DNA from: Agreia sp. Leaf210
Lineage (GTDB): Bacteria; Actinomycetota; Actinomycetes; Actinomycetales; Microbacteriaceae
Direction: 5' to 3'
Length of the DNA: 64,000 bases
NCBI RefSeq assembly: GCF_001421485.1
Contig: NZ_LMKK01000003.1
Location: 496,001 to 560,000 of the forward strand
The notes beneath the pieces are model-generated. The model was given only the letters and a program-made list of their open reading frames with translations, searched no databases and was not told the DNA's origin. Both the position numbers and the translations under genes were made by a program. Below are positions 33,048-40,768 of this stretch, in pieces (position 1 is the stretch's first letter; each line of letters starts with the position of its first letter).

Positions 33048-33245
33048 GCGGAGGGTCGACTGTTCAATCCGTGCAATAATTGAGAATCGAGACCCGTTCT
33101 TGTGCAGGGTGTCTGGTCAGCCAGACACGAAAAACCAGCACTTGACATGGGTCTTAGTAATGTCAGAAAACAACTCCAGCCTCCAATTGGCATCGACTCG
33201 TGAGAGCCGAATCCACCCGGTGAGACCGGCGTGAAAGGTGATCGT

Positions 33246-34586
<1,341 letters not shown>

Positions 34587-34593
34587 GCCGCGG

Positions 34594-35874
34594 ATGCGTT
34601 ATATCGCGCCCGTTCTCGTCGGTCGCGCGGTCCGGGCTGTCACCCGGGCCCGCGGCGGCGGTTCGGCGCTGCCCGGTTACATCGTCAACAAGATGGCGCC
34701 CGGCTTCATCAAGAATGTCGTCGCCCAGTTCGAGTACGGCATCGTCTTCGTCCTCGGCTCCAACGGCAAGTCCACGACCACGCACATGCTCACGGAGGTT
34801 CTCCGTGGGCACGGTCTGACCGTGTTCACGAACCCGTCCGGAGCGAACCTGCCGCAGGGCATCTCCTCCGCCCTGCTGTCCGAGGTCGGCGTGACCGGCA
34901 AGCTGAAGGCCGATATCGGCATTCTCGAGGTCGATGAGGCGTTCGCGCTCGAGCTGTCGAAGACCCTGCTGCCGTCGACGATTCTTATGCTGAACGTGCA
35001 GGTAGACCAGCTCTACCGGTTCTTCGAGACCGAGGTCGTCGCCGATATGATGCTCGACACCGCGGCTGTGGCGACGAAGCACGTCATCAGCAACCGCGAC
35101 GACGCCTATCTGTCGAAGATCGGCGAGATCCTCGCGAAAAATGGTGGCCCGGTTCCCGACGTCACCTACTTCGGCGCCTCGCCGAAGCTGGTCGCGAGCT
35201 CTGCTCACGGCCTGTTCAATGCTGCCAATCACCGAGAAGAAGCATCGACCGCGACGATCGATGCCCTGGCCGAGCTCGAATCGTGGGACAGCACCGGTGC
35301 CCGCGTGCGGGTGGCAGGAGAACTGGCCGACATCGCTCTCCCCGCCAAGGGGCTGCACTACGGCATCGATGCCGCGGCGGCGCTCGCCACGGCCGCGCAG
35401 GTGCTCGGCACCGAATTCGACCTCGCGAAAGCATCGGCCGCCTTCTCGTCGATGACGCCTGCCTACGGACGCGGCGAACTACTCGACTTCGGAGACGAGA
35501 AGGTGGAGTTCGTGATGTTCAAGAACGCCGCGAGCCTCCAGCTCAATCTCGATGCGCTTCCCGCGGCGCCGGAGCAGGTCATGGTCGCGATCGACGAAGG
35601 CACTCCCGACGTCTCCTGGCTCTACGACATCGATTTCGCCCAGCTCGACCACGTCGATGTGCTGACGGGTGCGAAGGCCTGGCAGTTCGCGCTCAGGCTC
35701 GAGCACGAGGGCATCCCGGTCGGCACGATCGAACCCGACCTCAAAAAGGCCATCGAGTTGATGCGCGCACTTCCCGCACCGACGACGGGTCACAAGACGT
35801 GGGTCGTCAACTACGAGCAGATGATGCTCGCGAGGAAGATCATCGGTTACGGCGACATGGAGGTCTCGTTTTGA
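34594..35874 (+). CDS. MurT-like Mur ligase, diverged
   Basis: MurT normally activates the D-Glu alpha-carboxyl of lipid II with ATP for amidation by ammonia from GatD. This 426-aa homologue has the Mur-ligase P-loop GSNGKSTTT (55-63), the SGAN and LEVDE motifs and the C-terminal DUF1727 domain. It lacks every cysteine, so the zinc ribbon of S. aureus-type MurT is absent (FGASPKLVASS lies there). The conserved RDQxDR is VDQLYR, and the DGRDxSW motif is reduced to TPDVSW (337-342). ATPase function looks intact while the donor side is remodelled. It starts 7 nt after sigA and overlaps the next gene by 4 nt (TTGA). Its substrate probably differs from classical MurT. Confidence 0.85.
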   Translation: MRYIAPVLVGRAVRAVTRARGGGSALPGYIVNKMAPGFIKNVVAQFEYGIVFVLGSNGKSTTTHMLTEVLRGHGLTVFTNPSGANLPQGISSALLSEVGVTGKLKADIGILEVDEAFALELSKTLLPSTILMLNVQVDQLYRFFETEVVADMMLDTAAVATKHVISNRDDAYLSKIGEILAKNGGPVPDVTYFGASPKLVASSAHGLFNAANHREEASTATIDALAELESWDSTGARVRVAGELADIALPAKGLHYGIDAAAALATAAQVLGTEFDLAKASAAFSSMTPAYGRGELLDFGDEKVEFVMFKNAASLQLNLDALPAAPEQVMVAIDEGTPDVSWLYDIDFAQLDHVDVLTGAKAWQFALRLEHEGIPVGTIEPDLKKAIELMRALPAPTTGHKTWVVNYEQMMLARKIIGYGDMEVSF

Positions 35875-36620
35875 GTTCGTCATCCTCACAGTCCGTCTCG
35901 ATCCTCGAGCTCTATCCCGAGCACCTCGAGGCAAGCGGTGAACGTGGCAACGTCACGGCACTGACGGCTCGTCTCGAACGGGCGGGTCATCGTGTCGACG
36001 TCGTACAGCACACGATGGGCCGACGTCTGCCGAAGGACGCCGACATCGTCGTGATCGGCAACGGGCCCATCTCGGCTGTGCGCGCTGTCCACGCCGACCT
36101 CACCGAGAACGCCGCCGCGCTGCGTGCGCTTGCAGACGATGGCGTGCCCTTCTTCGCCGTTGGAGCCGGTGCGGAACTGCTCGGCGGAGGCATCACGCTC
36201 GCCGACGGAACGGTCCTCGGCGGCGTCGGAATCTTCCCCTTCTCGGCGCGACGCGGCGTTCCCCGCCAGGTCGGATACATCGTCATCGAGTCAGCGCACG
36301 GAACCGTCGTCGGCTTCGAAGACAACGCGTCGGAGTGGAACCTCGATACCGGCGCTGTGCCACTCGGCGTCGTCACCTCGGGCGGCGGCAACGGCAACGG
36401 CCGGGAAGGCGTCATAGCGGGCTCCTCAATCGCGACTCAGACCAAGGGACCGGTGCTTCCACTGAACCCCTCGGTCAGCGACGCCATCATCAGGGCTGCG
36501 CTGGAACGCCGCGACGTCGCCTATGCGACGTCGGCAGCGCACGCCGAACTCGATCGTCTGGCCGCCAAGTCGCGAGAAGTGATCGTCGCGAACGTCAAGA
36601 GCGTCTTCACCACGATCTAG
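35871..36620 (+). CDS. GatD-like glutamine amidotransferase, catalytically dead
   Basis: A 249-aa protein with the GatD/CobQ-type class I amidotransferase fold: N-terminal LYPEHLEASGERGNV, then the nucleophile-elbow region and C-terminal GPVLPLNP. The elbow Cys is Gly98 (PFFAVGAGAELLG against a family pattern AVCGGYQLLG), and there is no cysteine anywhere in the protein. The GFENHGG-type His segment reads GFEDNAS, and the second conserved His (YLHGP) is Lys (QTKGP). The GGGQDREQ region is GNGPISAV. Glutamine hydrolysis is therefore not possible. The fold core is conserved, arguing for a structural or regulatory role with the MurT-like partner. The TTG start has GGAGG 7 nt upstream. Confidence 0.85.
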   Translation: MSSSSSQSVSILELYPEHLEASGERGNVTALTARLERAGHRVDVVQHTMGRRLPKDADIVVIGNGPISAVRAVHADLTENAAALRALADDGVPFFAVGAGAELLGGGITLADGTVLGGVGIFPFSARRGVPRQVGYIVIESAHGTVVGFEDNASEWNLDTGAVPLGVVTSGGGNGNGREGVIAGSSIATQTKGPVLPLNPSVSDAIIRAALERRDVAYATSAAHAELDRLAAKSREVIVANVKSVFTTI

Positions 36621-36622
36621 TG

Positions 36623-37375
36623 ATGTCGTCAGCTCTCACGACACATCCGTCGCCACCGCGCCGTGCTGTCATCGACCTCGACGTCGTACGCCGCAACGCA
36701 CGGATCCTGATCGCTCTGGGAGAGCCTCATCGCGTCGTCGTCGATCTGCGCGGCGACGCCTACGGTCACGGAGCCACGGCGATCGCCGCTGCCCTCGACG
36801 GCGAAGCGATCGATGCTTTCCTGGTGTCGCACGAGGCCGCCGCTGCGGCCATCCACGACGCCGGTGTCTCGATTCCCGCCATCCGGAGCGCCGAACAGGG
36901 CGCGGGCGACGTCGCGCTCATCGGCCCGGAGCTCTTCGGGCTCGACACGATCTCTGTTCCCGACCCGCGGCGTCTCGGACTCTCGCCCGCGATGACTCTC
37001 TCGGCACGCGTCCTCTCGACCAAGAAGGTCGGAGCCGGTGAGGGAGTCTCGTACGGCTACGTGTACCGCACCGCGGCGCCGACCACGCTCGCCATGGTCT
37101 GCCTCGGCTACAGCGACGGAATCGACCGGCACGCGTGCCTCGGGGGGCGGGCGTGGTTCGCCGGATCCACTCATCCGATCGCGGGCCGGGTCGCCATGGA
37201 CGTCTTCATGCTCGATGTCGGAGACACTCCCGTCTCGCCCGGTGACGAGGTGGTTCTCTTCGGAGACGAGGCGAAGGGATATCCGTCCCCGCTCTCGTGG
37301 GCCGGGAACCTCGGAAAGACAGCGGCAGAGGTCACCGCATCGCTGGGCGACAGAATCGTTCGGAGCTACTCATGA
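36623..37375 (+). CDS. Truncated alanine-racemase paralogue lacking the PLP lysine
   Basis: A 250-aa member of the alanine racemase family, which is normally about 370 aa. The PLP-lysine motif KxDAYGHG reads RGDAYGHG (Arg43). The middle of the TIM barrel is missing between AGVSIPAIRS (about 89) and GPELFGLD (about 101), removing the PLP/substrate residues. The C-terminal beta domain is well kept: GEGVSYGYVYRT with the catalytic Tyr144 (Tyr265 in Bacillus numbering), CLGYSDG with Tyr163 (Tyr284), and GRVAMDV with Met192 (Met312). Alone it cannot be a racemase. It lies 2 nt after the GatD-like gene and overlaps the next by 4 nt (ATGA). A GTG at 36620 is an alternative start. Confidence 0.87.
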   Translation: MSSALTTHPSPPRRAVIDLDVVRRNARILIALGEPHRVVVDLRGDAYGHGATAIAAALDGEAIDAFLVSHEAAAAAIHDAGVSIPAIRSAEQGAGDVALIGPELFGLDTISVPDPRRLGLSPAMTLSARVLSTKKVGAGEGVSYGYVYRTAAPTTLAMVCLGYSDGIDRHACLGGRAWFAGSTHPIAGRVAMDVFMLDVGDTPVSPGDEVVLFGDEAKGYPSPLSWAGNLGKTAAEVTASLGDRIVRSYS

Positions 37376-38442
37376 CCGCATCGACAGGCGAGATCGTCGT
37401 CGATCTCAGCGCACTCCGCCACAACCTCGACGTGTTGACCGCGCGGGTCGCCCCGGCCCACGTGATGGTCGTCGTCAAGAACGACGCCTATGGGCACGGA
37501 CTCGTCGATGTCGCCAGAGCCGCCGTCGACTCGGGCATCTCATGGATCGGTGCGCTCGACGTGCCGACCGCTCTGACACTCCGCGAGGCAGGCATCACCC
37601 CGCCGACGCGGATCTTCGCCTGGTTGCTCGACCCGGCCGACGATCCGGGTGCCGCCATCTCTGCCTCGGTCGATCTCGGTATCTCGACCGTCGACCAGCT
37701 GCAGTCCATCGCGGCTTCCCCGTCGTCGTCGACCGCCCGAGTCCACCTCAAGATCGATACGGGGCTGCATCGCAACGGGGCGACGCCGGAGGACTGGCCC
37801 GACCTCGTCAGCCTCGCACGGTCGCTGGAGGATCGAGGAGTGGTCGAGATCGTCGGCGTCTGGACTCACATCGCCGAAGCCGACGACCACGAGGATTCGC
37901 TCTCGATCGCCCGATTCAACGAGGCGGTCGCCGTGGCACGCGATCTCGGTGTCGAGGCACCGCTCCGGCATCTGGCAGCCAGCGCTGCCGGCTTCGCCCG
38001 AGCCGACGCGCGCTTCGACCTCGTTCGCTTCGGTGCCTTCGCCTACGGACTGCCGCCGGGCGACGGGCCGAGCGCTCACAGCATGGGGTTGCGTCAGGTG
38101 ATGACGATGCGCGCGCCCGTCTCGTCGATCGAGGTGCTTCCGGATGGCCGCCGGGCGTCCATCGACCTCGGCTTCGCAGACGGACTCTCGACACTCGCGC
38201 CCGGCCGAGTCGGTGTCGCCCTCCACGGCCGGCGGCATCCGCTTGTCAGCCCTCTCGAGGTCGACAGGGCCTGGATCGGCCTCGACGACGACGCCGATGT
38301 CGCCGTCGGCGATCTCGTCACTCTGTGGGGCGATGGCAGCACGGGGGAGCAGACCCTTCAGGAGTGGGGCGACGCCACCGAGACCATGTCCGAGGAACTC
38401 GTCGTGCGGCTCAGCCCTCGCATTCCGCGACGCTTCGTCTGA
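37372..38442 (+). CDS. Alanine-racemase paralogue with PLP lysine but no catalytic tyrosine
   Basis: A 356-aa alanine racemase-family protein. The PLP lysine is present (VVVKNDAYGHG, Lys36), with Arg in DTGLHRNG, Ser in AASAAG and Arg in DLVRFG, so the barrel should bind PLP. The segment that carries the catalytic Tyr (GEGVSYGxTY) is deleted: sequence passes from IEVLPDG (253-259) directly to RRASIDLGFADG. Tyr284 is Phe268, the GRxCMDQ motif is VSPLEVDR, and the late Tyr354 region reads MSEE. Alone it lacks the second catalytic base, which the preceding protein retains. Its ATG overlaps that gene's stop, so the two should be made together. Confidence 0.87.
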   Translation: MTASTGEIVVDLSALRHNLDVLTARVAPAHVMVVVKNDAYGHGLVDVARAAVDSGISWIGALDVPTALTLREAGITPPTRIFAWLLDPADDPGAAISASVDLGISTVDQLQSIAASPSSSTARVHLKIDTGLHRNGATPEDWPDLVSLARSLEDRGVVEIVGVWTHIAEADDHEDSLSIARFNEAVAVARDLGVEAPLRHLAASAAGFARADARFDLVRFGAFAYGLPPGDGPSAHSMGLRQVMTMRAPVSSIEVLPDGRRASIDLGFADGLSTLAPGRVGVALHGRRHPLVSPLEVDRAWIGLDDDADVAVGDLVTLWGDGSTGEQTLQEWGDATETMSEELVVRLSPRIPRRFV

Positions 38443-38475: not shown

Positions 38476-40560
38476 TCAGGTGTCGATGCGCTCTCGCGAC
38501 ATGCCTTCTGATCCGGCGATGATGAACTCCTTGCGCGGGGCCACGTCGTCGCCCATCAGCAGGTCGAACGTGCGCTCTGCCCGCTCCGCGTCGCTGACAC
38601 CGACCCTACGGAGGGTGCGATGACGCTTGTCCATCGTCGTCGTCGCGAGCTGATCGGCGTCCATCTCGCCGAGACCCTTGTATCGCTGGATCGGATCCTG
38701 GTAGCGCTTCTTCGCCTTGTCGAGCTGGGCGAGCAACGTGTGCAGCTCAGCCTCCGAGTACGTGTAGATCGTCTCGTTGGGCTTGGTGCCGGGGTTCATC
38801 ACGACGACGCGGTGCAAGGGAGGGACGGCCGCGTAGACACGACCGTCTTCGACCAGGGGTCGCATGTAGCGGAAGAACAGGGTGAGCAGCAGGGTTCTGA
38901 TGTGCGCCCCATCGACGTCGGCGTCGCTCATGAGGATGATCTTGCCGTAGCGCGCGGTCGACAAGTCGAAGGAACGCCCCGAACCTGCACCGATGACCTG
39001 GATGATCGAGGCGCACTCCGCGTTGCCGAGCATGTCCGAGACCGAGGCCTTCTGCACATTGAGGATCTTGCCTCGAATAGGCAGCAGGGCCTGGAATTCG
39101 CTGTTGCGGGCCAGCTTCGCCGTTCCCAGAGCCGAGTCACCCTCGACGATCATCAACTCGCTCAGGGCCACGTCGTTCGAGCGGCAGTCGACGAGTTTCG
39201 CCGGCAGCGACGACGACTCGAGAGCATTCTTGCGACGCTGGGTCTCTTTGTGCGCGCGGGCAGAGATGCGCGACTTCATCTCGGCGACGACCTTGTCGAG
39301 CACCAGAGCGGTCTGTGCCTTGTCGTCGCGCTTGGTCGACTCGAATCTCTCCTTGAGGCCCTTCGTGACGACCTGCGACACGATGTTGCGCACGGCGGGA
39401 GTTCCGAGGATCTCCTTCGTCTGTCCTTCGAACTGGGGCTCTGGCAGCCGCACGGTCAGAACGGCGGTGAGGCCGGCGAGCACGTCGTCCTTCTCGAGCT
39501 TGTCGGTTCCCGCCTTGAGTCGGCGGGCATTCGCCTCGACGGTCTGACGCAAGAACTTGAGGAGGCCGGCTTCGAATCCCGCCTGGTGCGTTCCGCCCTT
39601 GGGCGTCGCGATGATGTTCACGAAGCTGCGGAACGTGGTCTCGTAGCCGGTTCCCCAGCGTAGGGCCAGGTCGACCTCGCACTCCCTGCTGAGCTCCGTC
39701 GGCACCATGGCCCCCTGAGGCGACAGCACGGGAACCGTCTCGGTGAACGAGCCGCTTCCTTGCAGACGCCACGTCTCGGTCACGCCGGAGTCGGTGGCGA
39801 GGTGCTCGACGAACTCCGCGATACCCCCGTCGAAGCGGAAGGCGTCGCGACGCACGTCCTCTCCGCGCTCGTCGGTGATGCCGATCGACAGGCCGGGCAC
39901 GAGGAAAGCCGTCTGACGTGCGCGGTCGAACAGTTCCTCGGTCTGGAAACGCGCGGTGGAGCTGAAGATCTGCCGGTCGGCCCAGTATCGGATGCGGGTT
40001 CCGGTGACGCCCCGCTTCACCTTGCCGACGACGCGGAGCTCGCTGCCGTTCTCGAACGGCGTGAACGGGGCATCCGGTGTCGGGGTCGAGCCGGAGTCGT
40101 CGAAGACACCCGGCTCGCCGCGGTGGAACGACATGGCGTAGGTCTTGCCGTCACGATCGACCTCGACGTCGAGGCGCTCCGAGAGGGCGTTGACGACAGA
40201 CGCGCCGACCCCGTGGAGACCACCGGATGCCGCATACGAGCCCGATCCGAACTTTCCGCCGGCGTGCAGCTTGGTGAAGACGACCTCGACGCCGGACAGA
40301 CCGGTCTTCGGCTCGATGTCGACGGGGATGCCTCGGGCGCGGTCCCTCACCTCGACACTCGAATCGGCGTGCAGCTGGATCTCGATCTCCGAGCCGTGCC
40401 CGCCCAGAGCCTCATCGACGGAGTTGTCGATGATCTCCCAGACGCAGTGCATGAGTCCGCGGGAGTCCGTGGACCCGATGTACATGCCGGGGCGCTTGCG
40501 CACGGCCTCGAGACCCTCGAGTACAGACAGGTGCCGTGCGGAATAGTCGGCCGATGCCAC
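38476..40560 (-). CDS. parE: DNA topoisomerase IV subunit B
   Basis: The ATPase subunit of a type IIA topoisomerase. The GHKL site is seen in EIIDNSVDEALGG and GGLHGVGASVVNAL. The TOPRIM domain has MIVEGDSALGTAK and MSDADVDGAHI, and the C-terminus has the YKGLGEMD motif. At about 694 aa it matches actinobacterial ParE. A GTG at 40560 fits the GGGAGAA just upstream; a TTG at 40572 is a longer alternative. Whether it is ParE or a second GyrB is inferred from its pairing with parC at 41072-43597 on the same strand, separated only by a small DUF gene on the opposite strand. Confidence 0.88.
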   Translation of the reverse strand: MASADYSARHLSVLEGLEAVRKRPGMYIGSTDSRGLMHCVWEIIDNSVDEALGGHGSEIEIQLHADSSVEVRDRARGIPVDIEPKTGLSGVEVVFTKLHAGGKFGSGSYAASGGLHGVGASVVNALSERLDVEVDRDGKTYAMSFHRGEPGVFDDSGSTPTPDAPFTPFENGSELRVVGKVKRGVTGTRIRYWADRQIFSSTARFQTEELFDRARQTAFLVPGLSIGITDERGEDVRRDAFRFDGGIAEFVEHLATDSGVTETWRLQGSGSFTETVPVLSPQGAMVPTELSRECEVDLALRWGTGYETTFRSFVNIIATPKGGTHQAGFEAGLLKFLRQTVEANARRLKAGTDKLEKDDVLAGLTAVLTVRLPEPQFEGQTKEILGTPAVRNIVSQVVTKGLKERFESTKRDDKAQTALVLDKVVAEMKSRISARAHKETQRRKNALESSSLPAKLVDCRSNDVALSELMIVEGDSALGTAKLARNSEFQALLPIRGKILNVQKASVSDMLGNAECASIIQVIGAGSGRSFDLSTARYGKIILMSDADVDGAHIRTLLLTLFFRYMRPLVEDGRVYAAVPPLHRVVVMNPGTKPNETIYTYSEAELHTLLAQLDKAKKRYQDPIQRYKGLGEMDADQLATTTMDKRHRTLRRVGVSDAERAERTFDLLMGDDVAPRKEFIIAGSEGMSRERIDT

Positions 40561-40768
40561 GTGTTCTCCCAAATAAGCGACGGGCCGAATGGATCATGGC
40601 CCAGCGATCAACTGTAGTTTCCCGCCGGGGTGTGCCGGTCCACCGACACGAATGACCTGATTCGACGTACGCGCAGAGCGAAACACGAGCGAAAGCGGCA
40701 CCGGCCAAAGCTACCCGTGATTTGATAACTAGATCGGTTGTCGAGCAGCGAGGCGTGAGGAGCATCAC

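Follow-up and report, generated by a model that had tools for sequence, protein, structure and literature searches.

Amino-acid racemases supply the cell wall with mirror-image forms of amino acids. In the homodimer of alanine racemase (Alr) each active site is shared between two chains: the barrel of one chain provides Lys39, Arg136, His166, Ser204, Arg219 and Tyr354, and the other chain contributes Tyr265', Tyr284' and Met312' (residue numbers follow Bacillus stearothermophilus Alr). Two overlapping genes of Agreia sp. Leaf210 raise the question of whether such a site can be divided between two different proteins. They lie in the window, the whole stretch of 64,000 nucleotides that was analysed (contig NZ_LMKK01000003.1, positions 496,001 to 560,000 of the forward strand), and are called here T, for the subunit with the catalytic Tyr, and K, for the subunit with the PLP Lys (Table 1). 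We propose that T and K are two obligate subunits of one PLP-dependent fold type III racemase; their pairing and catalysis are inferred, and we hold this reading with high confidence.

Table 1. Features of the window at and around the putative racemase pair (window coordinates).
Feature	Coordinates	Strand	Basis or remark
T subunit (Tyr subunit)	36623..37375	+	250 aa; truncated barrel and complete Ala_racemase_C (Pfam)
K subunit (Lys subunit)	37372..38442	+	356 aa; complete Ala_racemase_N, catalytic-Tyr segment deleted (Pfam, alignment)
ATGA overlap, T stop / K start	37372..37375	+	sequence; translational coupling inferred
MurT-like Mur ligase, upstream neighbour	34594..35874	+	MurT_C, Mur_ligase_M
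GatD-like glutamine amidotransferase	35871..36620	+	GATase_3; start codon not determined
RpoD-type sigma factor	33231..34586	+	flanks window-type locus in other genera too
ParE/GyrB-type topoisomerase subunit	38476..40572	-	other-side flank, in other genera too

The two genes are in line with rpoD, murT and gatD and face parE, with 2 bases between the end of gatD and the start of T. In Pfam, T matches only positions 1-71 of the 220 of Ala_racemase_N and all 127 of Ala_racemase_C. It carries Arg43 at the Lys39 site and has Tyr144 (Tyr265), Tyr163 (Tyr284) and Met192 (Met312); Asp313 is kept as well. The Ala_racemase_N domain of K is complete, with Lys36 (Lys39), Tyr40 (Tyr43), Arg134 in the motif DTGLHR (Arg136), His166, Ser204 and Arg219, and its Ala_racemase_C match lacks positions 1-31 and begins at 32; nothing aligns at the catalytic Tyr265, Phe268 stands for Tyr284 and Val297 for Met312. 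The original prediction had named Arg43, Tyr144, Tyr163, Met192 and the lost barrel portion in T, and Lys36, the Arg of DTGLHR, the Ser of AASAA (Ser204), the Arg of VRFG (Arg219), the lost Tyr segment, Phe268 and the Val at Met312 in K, together with both reading frames and their ATGA overlap; all of this is borne out by the sequence and by Pfam. It had made no mention of Glu341, which occupies the Tyr354 position in K. The PLP Lys and the catalytic Tyr never occur in the same chain of the window pair, T being without the one and K without the other, and T and K together hold all the Alr active-site residues except Tyr354, replaced by Glu341. The roles of Arg136, Arg219, Tyr43, Ser204, Tyr265' and Tyr354 in Alr are described in PMC4517790. 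In the proposed mechanism the whole barrel would come from K and the whole C-domain from T, and a 1:1 heterodimer would have exactly one working site; the second site, made of the part-barrel of T and the C-domain of K, would be dead. The evidence, which is that of sequences, strongly supports a heterodimer with one composite site; there are no data on the complex, its activity or the Lys36-Tyr144 distance.

The pairing of the two losses was followed in 40 loci from other genera, with the ORFs sorted on Lys39 alone. Tyr265 is present in none of the 39 Lys39-bearing ORFs readable to the C-domain (40 such ORFs in all), and the 39 ORFs without Lys39, 32 of which have another letter there and 7 nothing aligned, all possess both Tyr265 and Met312. 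Both partners are seen at 39 of the 40 loci, the last T being cut by a contig end. Sixteen of the loci were picked for two neighbouring Alr_C matches, one of them without the Tyr region, a choice that favours a Tyr-less K, and the T loci found by the motif scan described below were preselected for absent Lys39; only the 24 loci picked by the T profile alone escape both selection biases. In that subset Lys39 occurs in 0/22 readable T, and Tyr265 occurs in 24/24 T and in 0/23 readable K. Chance pairing of the two losses is rejected. The homologue alignment called for by the original prediction has come out in its favour, Lys loss and Tyr loss being paired wherever both partners are readable; a pair with only one degenerate member, which would have refuted it, was not seen among the loci examined.

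A larger set of distinct sequences comprises 91 T, 11 fused T, 86 K, 11 fused K, 59 intact Alr and 6 cut or broken pieces, and retains a few near-duplicates (1 T, 3 K). Since its classes were defined by Lys39, Tyr265 and, for T, also Met312, these residues add no independent support, and the tally shows no more than that every ORF fits a class. All 97 K or fused K retain Arg136 and His166, 93 of them reaching the C-domain, and Asp/Asn313 is found in 102/102 T or fused T. Met312 survives in only 2 of the 75 readable K, and position 354, restricted to Y or D/E in K, varies widely among T (A, L, P, G, V, E and others). Residues that would serve only the dead second site (Met312 in K, position 354 in T) decay. 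The T forms themselves make up a graded series of barrel loss, from longer-barrel T with Asp, Gly, Ser or Thr at position 39 (L154, L155, L160, L163 and L166-L168) to T in which only the C-domain is recognisable (L157, L162 and L164). One K (L107:3388-4501) is split into two overlapping frames, by a frameshift or by an error in the MAG sequence.

There are 11 distinct natural K-T fusions in one frame, with the Lys in the first half and the Tyr in the second. Fused K-T ORFs were read in Pseudoclavibacter, Gulosibacter and related organisms (L028-L031, L077, L096, L098, L118, L122 and L130) and in genus g50 (L033 and L034), where the chain runs on into TsaE; Pfam confirmation is confined to the two that were scanned, L033 and L118. 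The K-T-TsaE triple fusion, TsaE being the tRNA t6A ATPase, extends over L033:934-3195 and L034:64-2430, with Pfam run on L033 only.

It is conceivable that K acts alone, as a homodimer with another acid/base or in another PLP reaction, and that T is a regulator or scaffold. The PLP barrel of K is complete, and activation by a dead paralogue has a precedent in trypanosomatid deoxyhypusine synthase (PMC3663545). If T only regulated, it would have no need of Tyr265 and Met312, yet both are present in all 39 ORFs without Lys39; the residues that would serve a K:K site have decayed in K, and the natural fusions join one K and one T per chain. We regard a self-sufficient K as very improbable, and retain the composite site of K and T.

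Against TIGR00492, K scores 192 bits, over the curated cut-off of 168, and T 110 bits, under it. An AF2 model of T (residues 10-250, 41 T sequences) reached a pLDDT of 92.4 and a pTM of 0.89, and all 241 modelled residues align with Alr of S. lavendulae (1vfh; Z 25.9, rmsd 1.9); that T has the Alr fold minus part of the barrel is a confident prediction. For window K, a match to the Alr family over its length rests on sequence alone. A fusion from another genus (L118) was folded from 6 sequences only, as adding separate K and T rows misaligned the halves; the model has a pLDDT of 72 and a pTM of 0.68, with no inter-half error reported. Its residues 2-374, the K half, match Alr with Z 35.9 and rmsd 2.9 over 351 aligned residues, and its T half was barely probed by that structure search.

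A profile search of the source genome (3.54 Mb, 99.9% complete) found Ala_racemase_C matches in the window pair and in one second pair, and nothing else. The second pair, hereafter pair I, sits at the canonical alr locus in the order glmS - K - T - tsaE - tsaB - tsaD (names from reading the translations, without a family search); K precedes T, its T has Thr for Lys39 and its K keeps Tyr354. No intact Alr turned up in this Ala_racemase_C search, and two more Ala_racemase_N matches are without Ala_racemase_C. The genome encodes a Ddl-type ligase, an enzyme that needs D-Ala; no D-amino-acid transaminase scores over the curated cut-off, three relatives lying below it. With its Tyr354 kept, pair I would make the D-Ala, an inference of which we are less confident. 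Both pairs, and no intact Alr, are found in 7 of the 8 Agreia genomes searched. The remaining genome (G007, L061), a smaller and fragmented assembly, is without a split pair; its two alr copies are intact and in tandem, possibly a picture of the ancestral state. These inventories join the paired losses and the one-chain fusions in supporting the original reading of complementary half-enzymes.

Since each protein alone is without catalytic residues, T and K could be taken for decaying duplicates or an assembly artefact without function. The frames are open in 7/8 Agreia genomes and in many genera, and the Ala_racemase_C matches of the source genome are confined to the two pairs. Median dN/dS values are 0.20 for window T, 0.19 for window K, 0.13 for the second T and 0.16 for the second K, within a range of 0.10-0.26 (Nei-Gojobori; 15 pairwise comparisons among 6 of the 7 Agreia genomes that have the split genes); such low values in all four genes indicate that both halves are maintained by purifying selection. 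Gene decay is rejected on dN/dS and distribution, and we give a functionless origin of the pair almost no credence.

Within Microbacteriaceae, whose members live in soil and on plants, the complementary pair, separate or fused, was found in at least 51 of 150 genomes, one of which had no match of any kind. Among the 51, three (G019, G118 and G130) have one member cut by a contig end, and that of G118 is unread. Nine of the 51 are without an Alr_C match outside the pairs (G000, G001, G003, G142, G027, G106, G056, G125 and G022), and a single fused ORF constitutes all Alr_C matches of G142, G027, G106, G056 and G125. Intact tandem alr copies occur in 16/150 genomes, all of them outside the 51 (Fisher p 0.0013, assuming independent genomes, which they are not). 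A T motif, Asp-aliphatic-not Lys-x-DAYGHG, was scanned over 84,980 species genomes and gave 63 loci, of which 58 hold a T and 5 are without any Alr match; an adjacent or fused K accompanies 54 of the 58, and the other 4 run off the sequence stretch. The bearers with a genus name all belong to Microbacteriaceae: Agreia, Leifsonia, Pseudoclavibacter, Gulosibacter, Salinibacterium, Labedella, Diaminobutyricibacter, Protaetiibacter, some Microbacterium, and Frigoribacterium MAGs; the others are family-level or unclassified actinobacterial MAGs. A class-wide T-profile search of 246 genomes, 12 of them from Microbacteriaceae, gave full-length matches at E 2.3e-56 or better only within Microbacteriaceae among the approximately 150 matches listed. 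A weaker full-length T-profile match, in an 856-aa frame, comes from the same class outside that family (G164:C80:10573-11283).

Position 354 divides the split racemases into two lines. Tyr354 is present in 7/7 K of pair I and 11/11 fused K (18/18), versus Asp or Glu in 73/73 readable K of the line to which the window pair belongs, 6 more being cut before this position. The lines also differ in location: window-line pairs adjoin rpoD, murT and/or parE, and pair I, the fusions and the intact tandem pairs adjoin glmS and/or tsaB-tsaD (flanks of L049-L131; L132-L171 not included). In the intact tandem pairs the second copy has Asp/Glu354 in 17/17 and the first has Tyr (15) or Trp (2). One genome (G080) combines a pair of the window-line type with a K-T fusion and, as its third racemase, a divergent Alr with Ala at 354 (L040, L030 and L046). 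A divergent group of intact Alr (L190, L182, L039, L179 and L176) has His at 354 and, in 4/5, Phe43; it possibly has another specificity.

Tyr354 limits Alr to alanine, and lysine racemases have Thr or Ala at this position (PMC3485190, PMC4517790). An acidic side chain at 354 would, by inference, suit a basic substrate. The peptidoglycan of Agreia is of type B2gamma, with L-Dab linked to D-Orn (PMC5945732), so a source of D-Orn is needed. Among species of Microbacterium, the walls contain D-Orn, L-Lys or Dab (PMC10757982). The location of pair I at the canonical locus and the acidic 354 of the window pair imply that the latter is perhaps not the source of D-Ala. Its substrate would instead be some other amino acid of the group-B2 peptidoglycan bridge, a diamino acid being the likeliest (ornithine in Agreia), and the window pair is perhaps a second racemase for the D-ornithine of the Agreia cell wall. 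We lean slightly towards a diamino acid as the substrate; the activity is inferred from the residue at 354, the location beside the cell-wall genes murT-gatD and cell-wall chemistry, and peptidoglycan type was compared with window-line presence for Agreia (D-Orn) only. Alanine is a possible substrate of the window pair, with distinctly less in its favour.

The same one-site heterodimer can also be read as existing in two alanine racemase isozymes, the acidic 354 bringing no change of specificity. Fold and family place both lines with Alr, and the Alr of Thermoanaerobacter functions with Gln at 354 (PMC4517790). In addition, the acidic line seems to be the only one in a strongly reduced Microbacteriaceae genome of 0.9 Mb (G022), which has a window-line T-K pair with acidic 354 (L032:1153-3073) and no other Alr_C match, its K having Asn for Tyr43; this line may thus also make D-Ala, or the organism imports it. 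Against such isozymes, the acidic residue is invariant in the 73 readable window-line K and the 17 tandem second copies, with Tyr or Trp in the first copies, and most window-line genomes have a further long-frame Alr_C match (part of these were read). We consider two isozymes unlikely without dismissing them, and continue with a diamino acid as the working substrate of the window line.

The origin of the pairs was approached through trees, AU tests and similarity to the copies of 17 tandem pairs (copy 1 and copy 2). In the barrel tree one group (100/88) unites the acidic K with the acidic intact copies, and the K of pair I and the fused K are placed among Tyr354 Alr. A single clade of all K subunits is rejected (AU p 3.6e-8), as are a clade of pair-I K with window-line K (p 0.00034) and a clade of window-line K apart from the intact second copies (p 0.0045, the long-branched L032 left out); the test does not exclude one common origin for the fusions (p 0.43). 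By similarity, the K of pair I is nearer copy 1 in 7/7 and its T nearer copy 2 in 7/7; fused K is nearer copy 1 in 11/11 and fused T nearer copy 2 in 11/11; window-line K is nearer copy 2 in 79/79. The T of the window line (T-II) is nearer copy 1 in 62/84, a weak signal with which its N-terminal remnant disagrees (nearer copy 1 in 30/75); L097 and L110 in this comparison are cut T halves of fusions, and the window's own T is slightly nearer copy 2. The T of pair I (T-I) falls inside the copy-2 group on a joint tree (100/98). Its derivation from copy 2 is favoured by trees and similarity, and AU tests leave alternatives: neither T-I outside the copy-2 clade (p 0.43, 0.32) nor T-II from copy 2 (p 0.31, 0.40) is rejected. 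In the C-domain tree, 6/7 fused T lie away from copy 2, beside window-line T and the C-domains of copy 1. Taken in the order copy 1 - copy 2, the tandem genes correspond to K-T in pair I and would correspond to T-K in the window line.

An ancestral copy 1:copy 2 heterodimer would leave behind a crossed pairing of the copies. The signs of such a crossing are good in pair I, conflicting in the fusions and no more than suggestive in the window pair. We put forward, tentatively and with less than even confidence, that Microbacteriaceae first evolved an obligate heterodimer of an intact copy 1 (Tyr354) and an intact copy 2 (Asp/Glu354), in which site A (barrel 1 and C-domain 2) would make D-Ala and site B (barrel 2 and C-domain 1) a D-diamino acid for B-type peptidoglycan, and which later decayed in complementary fashion to single-site heterodimers. 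Pair I, and perhaps the fusions, would have kept site A, with K from copy 1 and T from copy 2; the window pair would have kept site B, with K from copy 2 and T perhaps from copy 1. Subunits with the Lys only would have arisen more than once.

The closest known systems include Alr itself (TIGR00492, PF01168+PF00842; e.g. 1vfh), which shares the predicted fold, the positions of the PLP Lys and Tyr' and an inter-subunit site; its canonical locus is that of pair I. Alr is a homodimer with two sites, whereas K and T are non-identical subunits, or one fused chain, with one predicted site per dimer. Serine palmitoyltransferase LCB1/LCB2 is a PLP heterodimer in which one subunit is without the PLP lysine; it is of fold type I, eukaryotic and no racemase. 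The lysine and broad-specificity racemases Lyr and Bar have the Alr fold, have lost Tyr354 and act on larger, basic substrates; they are homodimers with Thr or Ala at 354, unlike the split window line with Asp or Glu (PMC3485190). Trypanosomatid deoxyhypusine synthase with its dead paralogue (PMC3663545) and AdoMetDC with prozyme (PMC5201418) are hetero-complexes of impaired and dead paralogues; they are eukaryotic and of unrelated folds, and are described as cases in which the dead partner activates, while K and T would each bring a different half of the site. No published split or heterodimeric alanine racemase was found in the open-licence PMC literature, a scope that leaves out most subscription journals. 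The Alr family is known; as far as this search extends, its two-subunit, one-site form and the fusion of that form are undescribed.

In many genera an apparently essential cell-wall enzyme exists only as two individually dead proteins; the split seems to have arisen repeatedly, and the halves have been naturally re-fused. Alr, an antibacterial target, is the textbook example of a homodimer, and the pairs offer a clean case in which complementary degeneration has made an obligate heterodimer out of one, the intermediates ranging from tandem copies that are still intact down to minimal part-barrels. Annotation pipelines that require one complete Alr would miss the racemase in such genomes. For the D-ornithine or D-diaminobutyrate of group-B2 peptidoglycan, the acidic line provides a concrete candidate for the gene behind its supply.
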